Assembly (NCBI GenBank): GCA_003641745.1
Contig: QNAI01000007.1
Location: 1-64,000, forward strand
Reading direction: 5' to 3'
Origin: Verrucomicrobiota bacterium
GTDB lineage: Bacteria; Verrucomicrobiota; Verrucomicrobiia; Opitutales; Opitutaceae
DNA: 64,000 nucleotides
Shown here: positions 6,058 through 39,274 of the stretch, in pieces
How positions within the stretch are numbered: the first letter of the stretch is position 1
Layout: every line of letters starts with the position of its first letter
Notes under the pieces: model-generated
Told to the model about the DNA's origin: nothing
The model's input: the letters and a program-made list of their open reading frames with translations, nothing else
Databases searched by the model: none
Position numbers and translations under genes: made by a program

Positions 6058-6921
6058 TCAGCGGGCGGAGATGGCTGCCTTGAGCGTCTGCTCAAGTTCA
6101 TCCGCTCCCGGCAACAATTTTGCATCGACATTGCGGCGGGCCAGTTCAATCGCCATGATCGGGGCCAATCCCCGGGCATAGGCAGACAGGGCCGTCGCCA
6201 TGCAGTTATAGTATTGAACGGTGCTTTCGTCGTTGAACTTGATCCGATTGGTCAGCGGGTTGACGAATCCATAGGCTCCAAGAATACCCAGGAAGGTTCC
6301 GGTCAGCGCCGCGGCCACCCTTTCGCCCACCACTTCCGGACCCTCCGAGATGGCGGCCATGGTATTGATGATGCCGAGCACGGCCGCAATGATCCCGATC
6401 CCGGGCAGCGAATCGCCCACCAGGTTCAGCACGGTGACCGGGCCGTGGGCTTCGCGCTCCTTGGTCTCGATCTCCGCTTCGAGCAGCGGTTGCAGCTGTT
6501 CGGGCTTGATCTTTCCGTCAATAATCGGCTTGAGGCCGTTGCAGAGAAATTCGACCTGTTCCTTGTTCTTCAGAAAGCGTGGGTATTTCTGAAAAATCGA
6601 GCTGTTTTCCGGTTCCGAAACATGCTCGTCCAATGCGATCAATCCGCTCTTCTTTCCGGTCAGGAACAATTCGTAGAGCACCTTCAGGAGGTCCATATAG
6701 TCATCGCGACCGGGCAGGGTTCCCTTGATCGCGGTGGTGGCGGCGCGGATGGTATTAATCATCACATCCTTCGGGCTGGCCACGATGAGCACGCCCATCC
6801 CGATGCCGCCGATCACGACGAACTCGGAGACGTGCATGAGCACGGCAGGATTCCCGCCCGCGAGCATGAAACCGCCGAGCGTCGCAGCAACAACAACGAA
6901 ATATCCGATAAAAATCAGCAT
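6058..6921 (-). CDS. motA: Flagellar motor stator protein MotA
   Basis: The protein is 287 residues and full length for MotA. It has two N-terminal membrane helices (IGYFVVVAATLGGFMLAG; FVVIGGIGMGVLIVAS), a long charged cytoplasmic loop that includes KYPRFLKNKEQVEFL, and two C-terminal helices with the conserved prolines (GDSLPGIGIIAAVLG; TFLGILGAYGFVNPL). It forms the stator ring with MotB and exerts torque on FliG. It lies between fliA and motB in the flagellar operon. Confidence 0.95.
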   Translation of the reverse strand: MLIFIGYFVVVAATLGGFMLAGGNPAVLMHVSEFVVIGGIGMGVLIVASPKDVMINTIRAATTAIKGTLPGRDDYMDLLKVLYELFLTGKKSGLIALDEHVSEPENSSIFQKYPRFLKNKEQVEFLCNGLKPIIDGKIKPEQLQPLLEAEIETKEREAHGPVTVLNLVGDSLPGIGIIAAVLGIINTMAAISEGPEVVGERVAAALTGTFLGILGAYGFVNPLTNRIKFNDESTVQYYNCMATALSAYARGLAPIMAIELARRNVDAKLLPGADELEQTLKAAISAR

Positions 6922-6936
6922 GAGGGGGGGCCCTTT

Positions 6937-7746
6937 CTATTTGTGCATGACGCTGGTCAGGTAGTTGCGCAGACTGATGACGGCCTGCGAGTGGATCTGG
7001 CAGATCCGGGACTCAGTCAGGCCGAAGACAGCTGCGATCTCCGCCAGGCGCATATCTTCGTAATAATACATGGCCAGGACCTTGCGGGGGACCTCCGGCA
7101 GCTGCTGGATGCGCTCGGCCACCAACCGGATCAGCTCGTCCTTTTCCATCTTGTCCGTCACCGCGACGAGGCTGTCGTCCGGGATGATCTCGTAGAGGTT
7201 CGTTTCCTCCGAATCATCGGGGGAGGTGCAGTGATCGAGCGGGAGGAAGCTGATCGGACGAACCTCCGTCATGAGGGCCTGGTATTCCTTCTCCGAGAGC
7301 TTCATCTCGGTTCTGACCTCAGCCTCAGTCGCCGGGCGCCCCAGTTTCTGCTCAAGATCTTCCACCACTTTGCGCAATTTCTTGAAATTGGTGCGGGCGT
7401 TCCGGGGCATCCAGTCCATCCGTCGCAACTCGTCGAGAATGGCTCCGCGGATGCGCATGGCGGCATAGGAGCCGAACGACTTCTTCTGTTTCGGGTCGTA
7501 CTTTCTCAAGGCCGCGATCAATCCCTGCAACCCCACGCTATGCAGGTCCGCTTCCTCAATATGCGGGGGCAGGTTGATCTTGATCCGGGCAACAATCGAC
7601 TTGACGATCGGCAGATAGAGCTTGAGCAGCTCCTCCTGGGTCTGTTCGTCCGAAGAACTGTTTTCCTGGTAGGTCGATCGAGCCCGTGAGGGGATCGAGG
7701 TCCTGGTTCTGGTCTTGGGTTTCTTGGTCGCGACGGCGTTTTTCAT
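6937..7746 (-). CDS. fliA: Flagellar RNA polymerase sigma factor FliA (sigma-28)
   Basis: The protein is 269 residues with sigma regions 2 to 4: region 2 around LPPHIEEADLHSVGLQGL and KKSFGSYAAMRIRGAILDEL, region 3 around KLGRPATEAEVRTEM, and region 4 with the helix-turn-helix LAEIAAVFGLTESRICQIH. The first 45 residues are a basic, Thr/Ser-rich extension. It should direct transcription of late flagellar genes. Its anti-sigma factor FlgM is not seen here. It starts 8 bp downstream of a small membrane-protein gene in the flhF-fliA interval. Confidence 0.93.
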   Translation of the reverse strand: MKNAVATKKPKTRTRTSIPSRARSTYQENSSSDEQTQEELLKLYLPIVKSIVARIKINLPPHIEEADLHSVGLQGLIAALRKYDPKQKKSFGSYAAMRIRGAILDELRRMDWMPRNARTNFKKLRKVVEDLEQKLGRPATEAEVRTEMKLSEKEYQALMTEVRPISFLPLDHCTSPDDSEETNLYEIIPDDSLVAVTDKMEKDELIRLVAERIQQLPEVPRKVLAMYYYEDMRLAEIAAVFGLTESRICQIHSQAVISLRNYLTSVMHK

Positions 7747-33501: not shown

Positions 33502-33739
33502 AACATTCGACGCTCACGGGAACGGTTGAAACGGGCGGATGTCGAGACTGATGAAAAAGATGTAAAAGGTCCGATCCGAACCATCGGCACCGATCTTCGG
33601 GGAAAGAGAACCGGACTTGCGCAACGGCCTGTAAATCGTAGACTCGGGCAAGGTGCAAGGTTCGCCCAGGCGCCGTAAATTGTCTCCATTCGTCGTGTCA
33701 TTCTCAGAAGAAAGCCGGAGTAAATCCGGTCCAGTCATT

Positions 33740-35263
33740 ATGCATTCCGTTCTCAAGGCGGCGTTGGACCATCTCGAAGAAGGCGTCGTCGTGACCAACG
33801 CCGGCAATGGAACCACCGGTTCCACCATTTGCTACGCCAATCGCGCCTTCGTTCATTTGACCGGCTATACCCTTGAGGAGCTTCTCGGTCAATCGCCTCA
33901 CCTCTTTCATGGTCCAAAAACGGATACCGCGATCGCCGAACGCCTGAATTCGCATTACGAGGCCGGAAACAAGGCACGTGGCGAGTCGATCAACTACTGC
34001 AAAGATGGAAGCGAATTCACGATGCAGTGGCAGGTTTTCCCGGTGGTTCAGGCGGACGGAAAGATTGCTCACACAATTGGTATTCACAAGGACGTCAGCC
34101 GAATTCGAAGGCTGGAGGAAGACCTTCTCCAGGCCCAGAAGATGGATGCTGTCGGGCGGCTGGCTCGAGGTATCGCCCACGACTTCAACAACCTCCTGGC
34201 TGTCATTCTGTCCTTCAGCGAACTGCTCCTTGAGAACCCCGACAGCCAGAAATCCCTCACGACCTTTGTCACCGAGATTCACAAGGCCGCCAAACGCGCG
34301 GCCGGGTTGACGTCGGAATTGATGGCCTTCAGCCGCCGCGAGAGCGCGGACCCCGAACTTCTCGAGCTCGGAGATGTCCTCTCCCAGATGACCCGGATCA
34401 TCCGCCGCATCATCCCCGAGAATATCGAGGTGGAGGCGCATCTCCCGGAGGAGCCGATCTATGTCCGCATCAACCGGGCGGCCCTTGAACAGGCTCTTGT
34501 GCACCTGACCACCAATGCCCGGGACGCCCTTCCCGACGGCGGAAGGATTACCATCGATCTGACGAGCCTGAGCGGGGACGAAACCGCCAATGTGCTTCCG
34601 GAATACTCCACCCCGGGATCGTACGCGGTTATCTCCTATGCGGACAACGGTACCGGCATGACCGAGGAAACCGTGTCCAGAGTCTTCGAACCGTTCTTCA
34701 CCACCAAGCCGGTCGGGAAGGGAACCGGACTCGGCCTCTCCACCACCTATGCCACGGTCAAGAACAGCAACGGGCATATCAAGGTCGAGAGCGAGGTGGA
34801 CAAGGGCACCCGGGTGGTGATCTCCCTTCCCCGGGAGTCGATCGTGGAGGAGTCGAATGAGTCGGTCGAAACGCCGGTCCGCCCACTGATCGCCCACCAA
34901 GTGCAGATACTCGTGGTCGAGGACGACGAAAACATGAGAGACTGCATCACCGGCGTACTTTCGATCTACAACTTTGAGGTATTCAATGCCGGCTCGGCCG
35001 AGGAGGCATTGGAGAATTTCGAATCCCGGGCGGGAGATATCCATGTTCTCCTTACGGATCTGATCCTTCCAAAAATGAACGGATCCGACCTGGCCAAACA
35101 TTTCCTGGAAAAGAACCCGGAGATCAAGGTCCTCTACATGACCGGCTACGACGATGAAACCCGTCGTGTGGATACCCTCCCGGGGAAAGCGGCCCTGTTG
35201 AGAAAACCATTCTCGCTCAACCAGGTGCTCACGACGGTCCAGACGGCCCTGGACGGCCATTGA
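33740..35263 (+). CDS. PAS hybrid histidine kinase with active receiver
   Basis: The protein is 507 residues from the ATG at 33740; the longer frame adds a region without domain character. PAS covers about 5-120 ([20 protein letters not shown]), the phospho-helix has His147 in [12 protein letters not shown], and the ATPase domain has N-box [20 protein letters not shown] and GKGTGLGL. The receiver domain (388-505) is complete: VVEDDE, Asp440 in [12 protein letters not shown] and Lys489 in LLRKPF. It is the only fully intact hybrid kinase in the window and close in sequence to the two kinases at 26600 and 30040, so these look like paralogues. It has no membrane helix. Confidence 0.92.
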
Positions 35264-35269
35264 GCCCCT

Positions 35270-35541
35270 AGTGTCCTGTCTCACAAATGAGCTTGTACAA
35301 TATGAGGGGTCATGGGGTCGATAGCAAGGCGGGACAATTCCGGAATGCCCGTAGGCCTTTCGGATTTGTCCTAACGCCGCTAGCGGCCCCATGACGCCCC
35401 ACCGCTTGGGCCAGGCTCTTTTCAACCTCAGCCGCGTTGCCTGCACCGGGCGGTGCCTCCGGGCACAGCACCGGCGCGGCCGCCTCGCTGAGGTTGAAAA
35501 TGGCTCTGGTATTGGCAAGCTCATCTGTGAGACAGGACACT
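35270..35541. mobile_element. 272-bp element with 26-bp terminal inverted repeats (MITE-like or structured element)
   Basis: The ends 35270-35295 and 35516-35541 are inverted repeats that match in 25 of 26 positions (outer end AGTGTCCTGTCTCAC). Inside are two long arms: 35306-35317 pairs with 35387-35400 (GGGGTCATGGGG against its complement) and encloses a second pairing of GGACAATTCCG with CGGATTTGTCC; 35419-35432 pairs perfectly with 35487-35500 (14 bp, TTTTCAACCTCAGC). No gene is inside. It lies between two convergent genes, 6 bp after one and 28 bp before the other. No clear target-site duplication is seen. Confidence 0.7.
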
Positions 35542-35569
35542 TGGGCGCCTGTTCGATTCGGCGACGAGG

Positions 35570-38500
35570 TCAGGGAACGGCATAAATCTCGACCAGCACC
35601 AGGCCGGTGTTTGCGTCCACGCTCCCCACCTCGGCGGTGTAGAGGCCGGGCTCAAGCCACAGAAGGAGCGCCGCATCTCGGCTGCCTTCCTTCAGGTGAA
35701 ACGCCCCGATCCGGTCAAACAGATCCGAGGGTATTCCAGCACCGTCCGTTCCGGACCAATCATCGTTCGTCGCAAACCGATCACTCCCCCGGTTGAGACT
35801 GAGCACGGGATTTCTCAAAAATTCTCTCACCCCAAACGGTCCCAGACCCGGACCCACTCCGCGGATCAACACCCGGGCGGGAACCTCTCCGGATATCACA
35901 AAGCCCGCTATGATCACGCCCTCGCCACCGCTCACCCGCATCCGGGTCGAAAGATTGATCACGCAACTGTGGGTTGAAACAACGGCTGCTTCCGGCACCA
36001 GGTAGACTTCGGTCAGCCCGACTCCGGCTCCGGCGGTGGAACTCAAGTGGACGGTGTAGGCTCCGGACTCGAGATTCAGTACGAGGGCAGAATCACCCGA
36101 TTCCGGTTCCAGGGGAAAGGCCCCGGCAAGGTTGGACCACTCCTGGATCCGGACGGCATCGGGCGAGGTACCCCAATCCCCGGCGACAGCCAGAACCTCC
36201 TCGGAGCGGAAAAGTTTCTGGTTCACCGACCGCAGGGCGCCGGCAACTCCGTACCGGAGGAGCCCGGGTCCGATTCCCCGAATCAGGACCGGCGACAGTC
36301 CCTCCCCCTCTACAACAAAACCCGTGACCATCACTGCCGCTCCATCACCGGTCACCCCGCGCAACGAGGTGTTCTGAAGGAAGTCGACCCGGTTGGTCCC
36401 GTCCCGAAGCCCGCCCAGGGTGAGGGTCGGCCCACCCGACACCGTCCATCTTCCCGAAAGGATCCCGGCTTCGGAATCGAGCGAAAATTCAAGGTGTCCG
36501 TGGTCGAACGCCAGGTGATCCCGGCCCGCGGCATCCATCCTGCCGGAAGCCGATCCGATCCACCCGCCGATTTCCACGCTCAGCACATACCGCCCGCTGT
36601 CATCGGCAATAAGCAGTAACTCGCCCGCGACGGTTCCGGCAATGCCCGCCCGGTAGAAACCGACGAACGACAAGGCCGGGTGGTCGTAGGTCCTGGCACC
36701 CTGCAGGAGGAATCCATCCGTGGTGGCGCCTTCGACCAGATCGTTCTGCAGGACGCCCGAGCCCTCCGGCTCCGGAACGATCGTTCTTGTATCAGGTTTA
36801 TACCTACCCGTGAATCCGAAGCTTCCGTTGTCGCCAATCTTCACTTCGCGGTCAAGAATCGGGTCGCCGTGCCCGTCCGCCCCGAAGATAACAGCGGAGC
36901 GGTCGTCCCGGACATACAAAGCGAAATAGCCGGGTCCTCCCCCGCCCAGGACCTCTCCCATCCAAACGCCAGCCGAGTTGACCGGCACAACCGTTACCTG
37001 AAAGACGTCCGATCGGGTTGCTCCCCATTCATTGCCAACCTCAACGGAATAATGCCCGGAGTGGCTGAAATCGACCGATTCGATCTTGAAGACCGGACCG
37101 TCTGCTCCCGACAATTCGGCGTCATCCCGGAACCAGCGATAGCTCATCGGTCCCGGGCCATCCGCTCCGATGGAAACTGAAAACGGACGACCAAATTCGA
37201 CCACACCCGATTCGGGAAGGTCGACCAGATGGGGACGCCCATCCCTGGTCACCACCTCGACCACACGGCTCTTGACCGATCCCAACCGGTTCCTCGCCTC
37301 GATCCAGTAGCGCCCTTCGTCTTCGCTCCGGGCAGCGTCAACCGAAAAAGACTCCGAGGTCGCCAATGCGATCGGCTCACCATCGTGATACCACTGCACG
37401 GTCGGCTTCGGATGGCCATCCACCGCTGCCGCCAATTCAAAGATATCACCCACGATCACATCACCGTCTTCAGGCTGAACGACAATTACGGGGGCTGACT
37501 CGGGACGGACAACCTTCAGGATTGCCACTTCGCTGTCCGCGTAGCCAAGGAGGTTCGTGACCCTGACGTGGTAGGCGCCCGAGTCTTCCATCCGAATCGG
37601 AGAGAATCTGATAGCCGAGCTATGCTCCCCGCTCAATTCGACTTCATCCCGAAACCACTGGTAGGTCGGCGGCGGCCAGGCGCGATCGCTCACCCTGAGC
37701 TCGAAGGCCTGCCCGGCGAAAACGGTTCCGCCCGACGGATGCGCCAGGATCTCCGGAACACGGTCACTCGGGGTTACAGATACCACGACCTCCCGGCTTG
37801 TAGCTTCCCCAAATCCGTTGGAAACTGAGACCGAATAGCGCCCGGCATCTGAAAGTTCTGCGCTTTCCTTCGTGAGGATTGGACCGCTCGCGTTCACGAG
37901 CCACTGGCTCCCCTTGAACCACCGGAAGACGAGGGGGGCGGTGCCTTCCGCCACGACCGAGAGCTCAAGCGGTTCCCCTTCAACTGTAGCCACACTCACC
38001 GGTTGCTCCATGATCGCGGGCGGCGTATCCACAGGTAGCACGTCAAGAAAAGCGGGACGGCCGGTGATCGCTCCGGCCGGGTTGAAGACGCTGACCGTAT
38101 AAGTCCCTTCATCGTGCTCGGAGATCTCGAGTATTTCCAGACGACTCGAGTCCGCACCGTCGATCACGACGCCTTCAAAGCTCCAGGAATAGGCCAGAGG
38201 GGCGGTTCCGGCGGCAGAGACCTCAAGTCGTACGTTTGAACCGGCCAGGACCGACTGGTCGGCAACCTCCACCACAATGGTCGGAGGGGTCATGATCGAC
38301 CGACTCGCCAACACCTGCCCGCCCGAGGTCACGGCATGGAACATCCGCCGGCCGAAGGTCACCGCATTGATCTGTTGCGCGGTGCCCACCTCCACCGTAT
38401 TCCAACTGTCGCCCCGGTCGATGGAATAGATGATGGTGCCGTTGCCGCCCACCGCCACAAACAGTCCGTCGCCAAAGGTAACTCCCCGGAGTGAAGATGT

Positions 38501-39274
38501 GGTCCCCGAATCTCGCGGCAACCAGTTCTCCCCGTCATCGGACACCATTACGGCCCCGGCGGCGCCGACCAGAACAAACCGTTCCCGCCCAAAGGCCATC
38601 GAGCGCACCGACACCCCGAGATCGACCTCGTGAATCTTCCAGTCGGATCCATTGGTGGATGAGAGCACCCTGTCTTCGTTGCCCGTCAGAAACCGCCCGT
38701 CGCCAAAGCAGATGGCATAGAGGTTGGTGTTGATCCCGTCGATGGTGACGGCGGACCAGTCGTTGAGGGCCACACTCGCGGTTGCGATCCGCCCGCCTGT
38801 CCCAACCACCACGAACTGCCCATCGCCATAGGCGACTCCCCAAAACGACTCTCCTGGAAAGTATTGGGACCATGAATCCCGATCACCGCTGTATCCGATC
38901 CCCTCCTGGAGAATCTGACCGATCACGATGGAAGCGCCGCTGAGGGCAAGGCTGTAGGCGCCTTCCAGACTCTCACTGGTATGATCCTCCAGGATTGAAA
39001 TATCGACGTCCCAGGCAACCTGCCTCTCAGGACCGACTGCGACGAACTCGTCGCGCTCAGCATCGAAGGCAACCGACCAGAGAAGGGTCGGACCAAACGG
39101 TTGGTAGACGACCCACTCCTTCTGCCCGAGGACTCGGCCGGGTGCCAGGCACAAACCCAGCGACGCCACCACAAGTACCCTGACCTCGCGCGAACCCAAT
39201 CTGCACAGGAACTGACCCAGAATCTGTCGTAAAGCCTTCAACGGATCCAAGAAACAGAGCAGATTCGACGCCAT
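35570..39274 (-). CDS. Large exported multi-Ig protein with N-terminal BNR/YCF48-type propeller
   Basis: The protein is 1234 residues. A signal peptide (VLVVASLGLCLAPGRVLGQ) is followed by propeller-like repeats to about 320 (LRGVTFGDGLFVAVGGNGTI, SMAFGRERFVLVGAAGAVM). Five immunoglobulin-like domains cover about 325-770, each with the W and Y-x-V pattern (AYSWSFEGVVI, TYQWFRDEVEL). A beta-rich region comes next, then two copies of the phylum's C-terminal repeat (NLSTRMRVSGGEGVIIAGFV; VLIRGVGPGLGPFGV). It is probably a cell-surface or secreted adhesion or binding protein. The same C-terminal repeat occurs in the protein at 57693. The last gene before it on the minus strand is 40029 or beyond, so it is likely monocistronic. 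Confidence 0.85.
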   Translation of the reverse strand: MASNLLCFLDPLKALRQILGQFLCRLGSREVRVLVVASLGLCLAPGRVLGQKEWVVYQPFGPTLLWSVAFDAERDEFVAVGPERQVAWDVDISILEDHTSESLEGAYSLALSGASIVIGQILQEGIGYSGDRDSWSQYFPGESFWGVAYGDGQFVVVGTGGRIATASVALNDWSAVTIDGINTNLYAICFGDGRFLTGNEDRVLSSTNGSDWKIHEVDLGVSVRSMAFGRERFVLVGAAGAVMVSDDGENWLPRDSGTTSSLRGVTFGDGLFVAVGGNGTIIYSIDRGDSWNTVEVGTAQQINAVTFGRRMFHAVTSGGQVLASRSIMTPPTIVVEVADQSVLAGSNVRLEVSAAGTAPLAYSWSFEGVVIDGADSSRLEILEISEHDEGTYTVSVFNPAGAITGRPAFLDVLPVDTPPAIMEQPVSVATVEGEPLELSVVAEGTAPLVFRWFKGSQWLVNASGPILTKESAELSDAGRYSVSVSNGFGEATSREVVVSVTPSDRVPEILAHPSGGTVFAGQAFELRVSDRAWPPPTYQWFRDEVELSGEHSSAIRFSPIRMEDSGAYHVRVTNLLGYADSEVAILKVVRPESAPVIVVQPEDGDVIVGDIFELAAAVDGHPKPTVQWYHDGEPIALATSESFSVDAARSEDEGRYWIEARNRLGSVKSRVVEVVTRDGRPHLVDLPESGVVEFGRPFSVSIGADGPGPMSYRWFRDDAELSGADGPVFKIESVDFSHSGHYSVEVGNEWGATRSDVFQVTVVPVNSAGVWMGEVLGGGGPGYFALYVRDDRSAVIFGADGHGDPILDREVKIGDNGSFGFTGRYKPDTRTIVPEPEGSGVLQNDLVEGATTDGFLLQGARTYDHPALSFVGFYRAGIAGTVAGELLLIADDSGRYVLSVEIGGWIGSASGRMDAAGRDHLAFDHGHLEFSLDSEAGILSGRWTVSGGPTLTLGGLRDGTNRVDFLQNTSLRGVTGDGAAVMVTGFVVEGEGLSPVLIRGIGPGLLRYGVAGALRSVNQKLFRSEEVLAVAGDWGTSPDAVRIQEWSNLAGAFPLEPESGDSALVLNLESGAYTVHLSSTAGAGVGLTEVYLVPEAAVVSTHSCVINLSTRMRVSGGEGVIIAGFVISGEVPARVLIRGVGPGLGPFGVREFLRNPVLSLNRGSDRFATNDDWSGTDGAGIPSDLFDRIGAFHLKEGSRDAALLLWLEPGLYTAEVGSVDANTGLVLVEIYAVP

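Follow-up and report, generated by a model that had tools for sequence, protein, structure and literature searches.

Structure of the locus

The stretch of DNA analysed here (the window; 64,000 nucleotides from the start of a contig of a Verrucomicrobiota bacterium) contains a short intergenic region between two convergent genes. The upstream gene (33653 to 35263, + strand) encodes a PAS / histidine kinase / receiver protein, and its downstream neighbour (35570 to 39274, - strand) a protein with immunoglobulin-like domains; the former ends 7 bp before, the latter 29 bp from, an element of 270 bp (35271 to 35540; GTGTCC...GGACAC). The edges of this element were set by an alignment of nine copies and 49 ends. 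On its left it is preceded by a TA (35269 to 35270) inside a CTAG (35268 to 35271), which would represent one half of a target duplication, while the right flanking dinucleotide (35541 to 35542) is TT here as opposed to TA in most copies and is presumably the mutated other half.

The left terminal inverted repeat with its extension (35271 to 35302, + strand) and its right counterpart (35510 to 35540, - strand) form the two halves of a closing stem. An initial annotation, made from the letters alone, had described 26-bp terminal inverted repeats at 35270 to 35541, and this is borne out by the sequence: positions 35270 to 35295 and 35516 to 35541 are identical in 25 of 26 bases, and an inverted-repeat search extends the repeats to 30 nt at 93%. 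The two independent internal arms of that description were likewise located. Arm 1 (about 35306 to 35398) is a long stem with a nested hairpin (35332 to 35371), and arm 2 (about 35411 to 35509) is a long stem that includes a perfect 14-bp run (TTTTCAACCTCAGC / GCTGAGGTTGAAAA). The element carries no gene of its own, and the convergent orientation of its neighbours is also as first described.

Copies of the element and their distribution

The genome of origin (G000) is a MAG whose 307 contigs total 4.3 Mb, with a completeness of 83% and 6% contamination. The initial annotation had named scattered BLASTN copies in the own genome as support for a MITE, and many were indeed found, about a dozen overall. 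Besides the window copy there are eight with at least 80% query cover and 85-95% identity (seven complete, one near-complete), as well as others truncated where a contig stops and numerous fragments. Contigs C7, C61, C69, C92, C134 and C273 terminate within copies, so that the copy number in the MAG is probably underestimated. The window itself holds no second copy, in agreement with the first description; one (66654 to 66927) lies on the same contig (C7), 2.6 kb past the window end. It might be argued that the repeat was introduced by contamination during assembly or binning, as a metagenome assembly so fragmented, with several contigs ending inside copies and with this degree of contamination, could suggest. 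However, copies occur within long contigs and have varied neighbours (the 66.9-kb window contig alone has two), and they are 5-15% different from one another, so that we consider such an artefact extremely improbable.

The ends of the element are more numerous than its complete copies. The end AGTGTCCTGTCTCACAAAT, with up to three mismatches, occurs 48 times in the genome versus no occurrence of the reversed control; many of these are single ends, and end pairs 58, 59, 75 and 96 bp apart indicate that internal-deletion forms of the element exist. Among the six closest copies the mean difference is about 6%, and the one in the window is 14-15% different from those on contigs C135 and C35, too much divergence for a very recent burst. 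BLASTN with the whole element gave no match in 56 relatives from its own family and order, so that, of the genomes tested, only this one has its interior; a plasmid collection gave no match to the element either.

Target site and insertion

Among 49 aligned ends from this genome, position -2 is C in 40 and position -1 is T in 39, followed by A (44/49) and G (47/49). The ends thus read C-TA-GTGTCCTGTCTCACAAAT, and the target is TA within CTAG. One copy (on C80) is flanked by CTAG on its left and CTAA on its right, which fits a 2-bp duplication of TA better than a 4-bp duplication. On C134 the flank of a copy recurs nearby: the filled version reads GGACAC-TA-AACTGAAAG, the other ACC-TA-GACTGAAAG, and the similarity breaks off at the element edge.

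Filled and empty sites can be compared for a mini-element with the same core end in Pseudomonas soli, which sits at GCG-CTAG-(element)-CTAG-GTT. Once the element and one TA are taken out, 604 bp around this site can be aligned with four other Pseudomonas genomes, in three cases without a gap and in the fourth with 8 gap positions; the empty-site junction is GCGCTAGGTT in all four. Judged from these alignments, TA is duplicated on insertion of this P. soli relative, and the empty CTAG sites agree with the biology of IS630, for which duplication of a TA target and preference for TA in CTAG are indicated by PMC2170065 and by the title of one of its references (Tenzen and Ohtsubo 1991).

Relationship to IS630 transposons

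Outside the genome of origin, ends of the same type were detected in nine of 387 genomes sampled across the phylum, the control giving none in any of them. CT nearly always precedes these ends, and pieces of IS630 transposases adjoin several of them. In one genome of the phylum (G220) an intact transposase of 369 aa (NCBIfam IS630, E 5.7e-77; Pfam DDE_3, E 3e-18) is enclosed by the ends CTAGTGTGCTGTCTCAGAAAT and CTAGTGTGCTGTATCGTTATT, 1,173 bp apart. A scan of species genomes with the 19-base pattern CTAGTGTCCTGTCTCNNAAAT gave at least 108 stretches, compared with an estimated chance expectation of about two matches; a longer pattern with two more fixed bases gave none. Among the matches listed are Pseudomonas, Acidobacteriota, Myxococcales, Deltaproteobacteria, Chloroflexi, Verrucomicrobiota and others, and the end pairs among them are mostly 46-326 bp apart. 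One Pseudomonas pair (L185) has a spacing of 1,177 bp and a frame-broken IS630 transposase in between. The sequence identity of the element to known autonomous elements is confined to about 20 bp at the ends.

Another locus (L147) was considered as an autonomous partner with identical ends and rejected, as those ends belong to an 88-bp mini-element (6875 to 6965) lying directly beside an IS630 element whose own ends are slightly different and whose transposase frame has one stop. A further locus (L105, about 1463 to 1521, in G172) is a 55-bp near-perfect palindrome consisting of little beyond two IS630-type ends.

We regard the element as a MITE of IS630 (Tc1/mariner-like) type, with a probability of roughly 0.93. 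It is short (270 bp), has no transposase gene, carries terminal inverted repeats (25/26) and is dispersed in many copies in its genome, and its ends are those of autonomous IS630 elements in other genomes (G220, and the broken L185). The scattered copies, the ends shared with IS630, the CTAG target and the filled and empty sites of a relative with the same core end thus uphold the initial suggestion of a non-autonomous transposable element. An IS630-family DDE transposase would act in trans on the element, recognising the GTGTCCTGTCTCACAAAT ends and excising it; the excised element would then be inserted at a TA within CTAG, with duplication of the TA.

An autonomous partner in the same genome was not found: in the assembly, 83% complete, neither DDE_3 nor the G220 transposase gave a match. 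Such a partner is not a defining requirement for a MITE, but this result lowers the certainty of the assignment to IS630, and the family looks like an orphan. The partner transposase may have been lost, may be missing from or collapsed in the assembly, or may be supplied from outside; we infer that the family was moved by an IS630 transposase with one of these fates. The only DDE_Tnp_1 transposase of the genome (on C292) was rejected as the mover, its own 46-bp repeats being different. It belongs to an insertion sequence (L101/L095) with a 589-aa frame, inverted repeats of 85% identity and unrelated ends.

Palindromic intergenic repeats may also be of the REP/BIME kind, moved by a RAYT (Y1 tyrosine transposase). 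The genome has 11 Y1_Tnp matches, about eight of RAYT length, and one copy of the element lies 5 bp after the RAYT gene on C135. This is, however, the only RAYT gene with element ends beside it, and there they form a separate unit, whereas several RAYT genes are flanked by their own GGGGTCA / TGACCCC. Element-type ends bracket IS630 transposases in other genomes, and TA is duplicated at like ends in the P. soli relative, while Y1 elements are not known to duplicate TA. The ends, together with a RAYT-flank palindrome that the element does not share, rule against a RAYT/REP origin, which we hold to be very unlikely. At the Y1 loci themselves (L087-L094, L096), eight matches are RAYT-like transposases with open frames of about 330-405 aa, the other three being shorter or partial, and a RAYT-like locus on C130 shows a clear inverted repeat, GGGGTCAATGGAAATAAATACGT.

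Secondary structure and its conservation

The proposal that the sequence could fold into a closed stem with two branches, on the DNA or RNA level, is supported by computed folds far beyond chance on either. The DNA fold reaches -104 kcal/mol (z -13.6) and is better than all of 200 shuffles, and the RNA folds, with z values of -15.2 for the + strand and -13.5 for the - strand, likewise surpass every shuffle. Across the nine aligned copies 96.9% of the paired cells are intact, i.e. the pairing is maintained. The initial annotation held that a single-copy element with unconserved pairing would weaken its readings; here, copies are many and their pairs are kept. Double-sided changes occur in 10 of 112 pairs; shuffles give 4.2 such pairs and slid controls 0-1. 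Part of these is due to one subfamily (C135 and C35), in which both ends are altered jointly from TCTCACA to TCCGA(C/T)A. Such co-change of the ends is expected for a transposon, and pairing by itself is no proof of an RNA function.

Strong folding is also found in sister mini-elements. All 21 others tested, from other phyla, beat shuffles as whole elements (z -5.2 to -15.1), and many do so with the interior alone. The cruciform appearance is thus a property of the mini-element class rather than of the locus; the two internal arms render almost the whole element palindromic, as in these sisters. Similarly, palindromic MITEs elsewhere preserve pairing among their copies, as does the family of the window element.

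Gene ends, stop codons and a possible role in termination

At 8 of 47 measurable ends (L022, L031, L045, L074 with two, L076, L081 and L096), the TAG of the junction CTAG is precisely the stop of an open reading frame with a minimum length of 140 aa, a place where insertion regenerates the stop. A cruder count, with both strands counted and reading frames defined by length only, places such stops at 10 of 48 junction CTAGs versus 3 of 86 other CTAGs. Provided that CTAG was the target, the TAG was there before insertion, and the genes concerned kept their stop. Selective loss of gene-breaking insertions would give this pattern, and so would a role as terminator. At L111 (C3:13408-13427), a single element end directly adjoins a gene with a dxr-like beginning (MSTRKRIVLLGATGSIG), and AAATGAGC of the element end appears to supply its ATG start.

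The initial annotation had also considered a terminator RNA for two convergent transcripts. Whatever its origin, the element might be held by selection at this locus as a structured RNA or bidirectional terminator, the convergent transcripts folding, stopping or gaining protection at the arms. The very strong fold on both strands, the convergent gene ends so close to the element proper and the excess of double changes between copies (10/112 pairs vs 4.2) are in line with this idea. On the other hand, Rfam covariance models gave no match up to E = 1, and a terminator scan found only one weak 5-pair site (at 35404) and no long stem with a T run. Moreover, the end co-changes are largely those of a single subfamily and fit the expectation for a transposon, the copies sit in varied gene contexts, and sister mini-elements elsewhere are just as palindromic. 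Maintenance by selection in such a role is therefore rather unlikely in our view. The element may nevertheless act as a terminator for the two convergent genes, and two-way termination might simply follow from the presence of a strong hairpin between them. It is likewise doubtful, if conceivable, that a whole class of CTAG-targeting, almost fully palindromic IS630 mini-elements in several phyla settles at TAG stops without gene breakage, the TAG being regenerated, and becomes bidirectional terminators, some copies of which are kept by the host.

As a MITE of IS630 type, the element is an ordinary kind of mobile DNA, and its family is apparently unnamed in the literature searched, in which no transposon with this end sequence was found. 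It adds one more MITE family for a little-studied lineage, with ends tied to IS630 elements across several bacterial phyla. The CTAG target also offers a simple route to a near-harmless transposon, as it permits landing on a TAG stop and rebuilding it.

Comparison with known systems

Members of the IS630 family (IS630, ISY100; PMC2170065) share with the window element the CTAG preference and would share with it the TA duplication, and like ends surround a transposase in other genomes; they are, however, autonomous and encode a transposase of about 370 aa, whereas the window element is geneless. ISPsy25 of the same family, which might have such ends, is listed at 1177 bp or more (PMC3189936). 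REP/BIME sequences with RAYT are likewise palindromic, intergenic and present in many copies, but the window element does not agree with them in its ends, its probable target duplication or the type of transposase.

The nearest known systems are RUP of Streptococcus pneumoniae with IS630-Spn1, and the Correia elements. RUP is similarly small, non-coding and intergenic, with IS630-like terminal inverted repeats and insertion at TA, but it measures 107 bp as opposed to 270 bp, has another end sequence and possesses an autonomous partner in the same genome, while none was found for the window element in its own (PMC2229807). The Correia elements (NEMIS) of Neisseria differ from the window element in sequence; they are likewise MITEs that occur in internal-deletion forms, their long inverted repeats are bordered by TA on either side, their transcripts are strongly base-paired, and RNase III processing and promoter or IHF motifs have been described for these Neisseria elements (PMC2229807).
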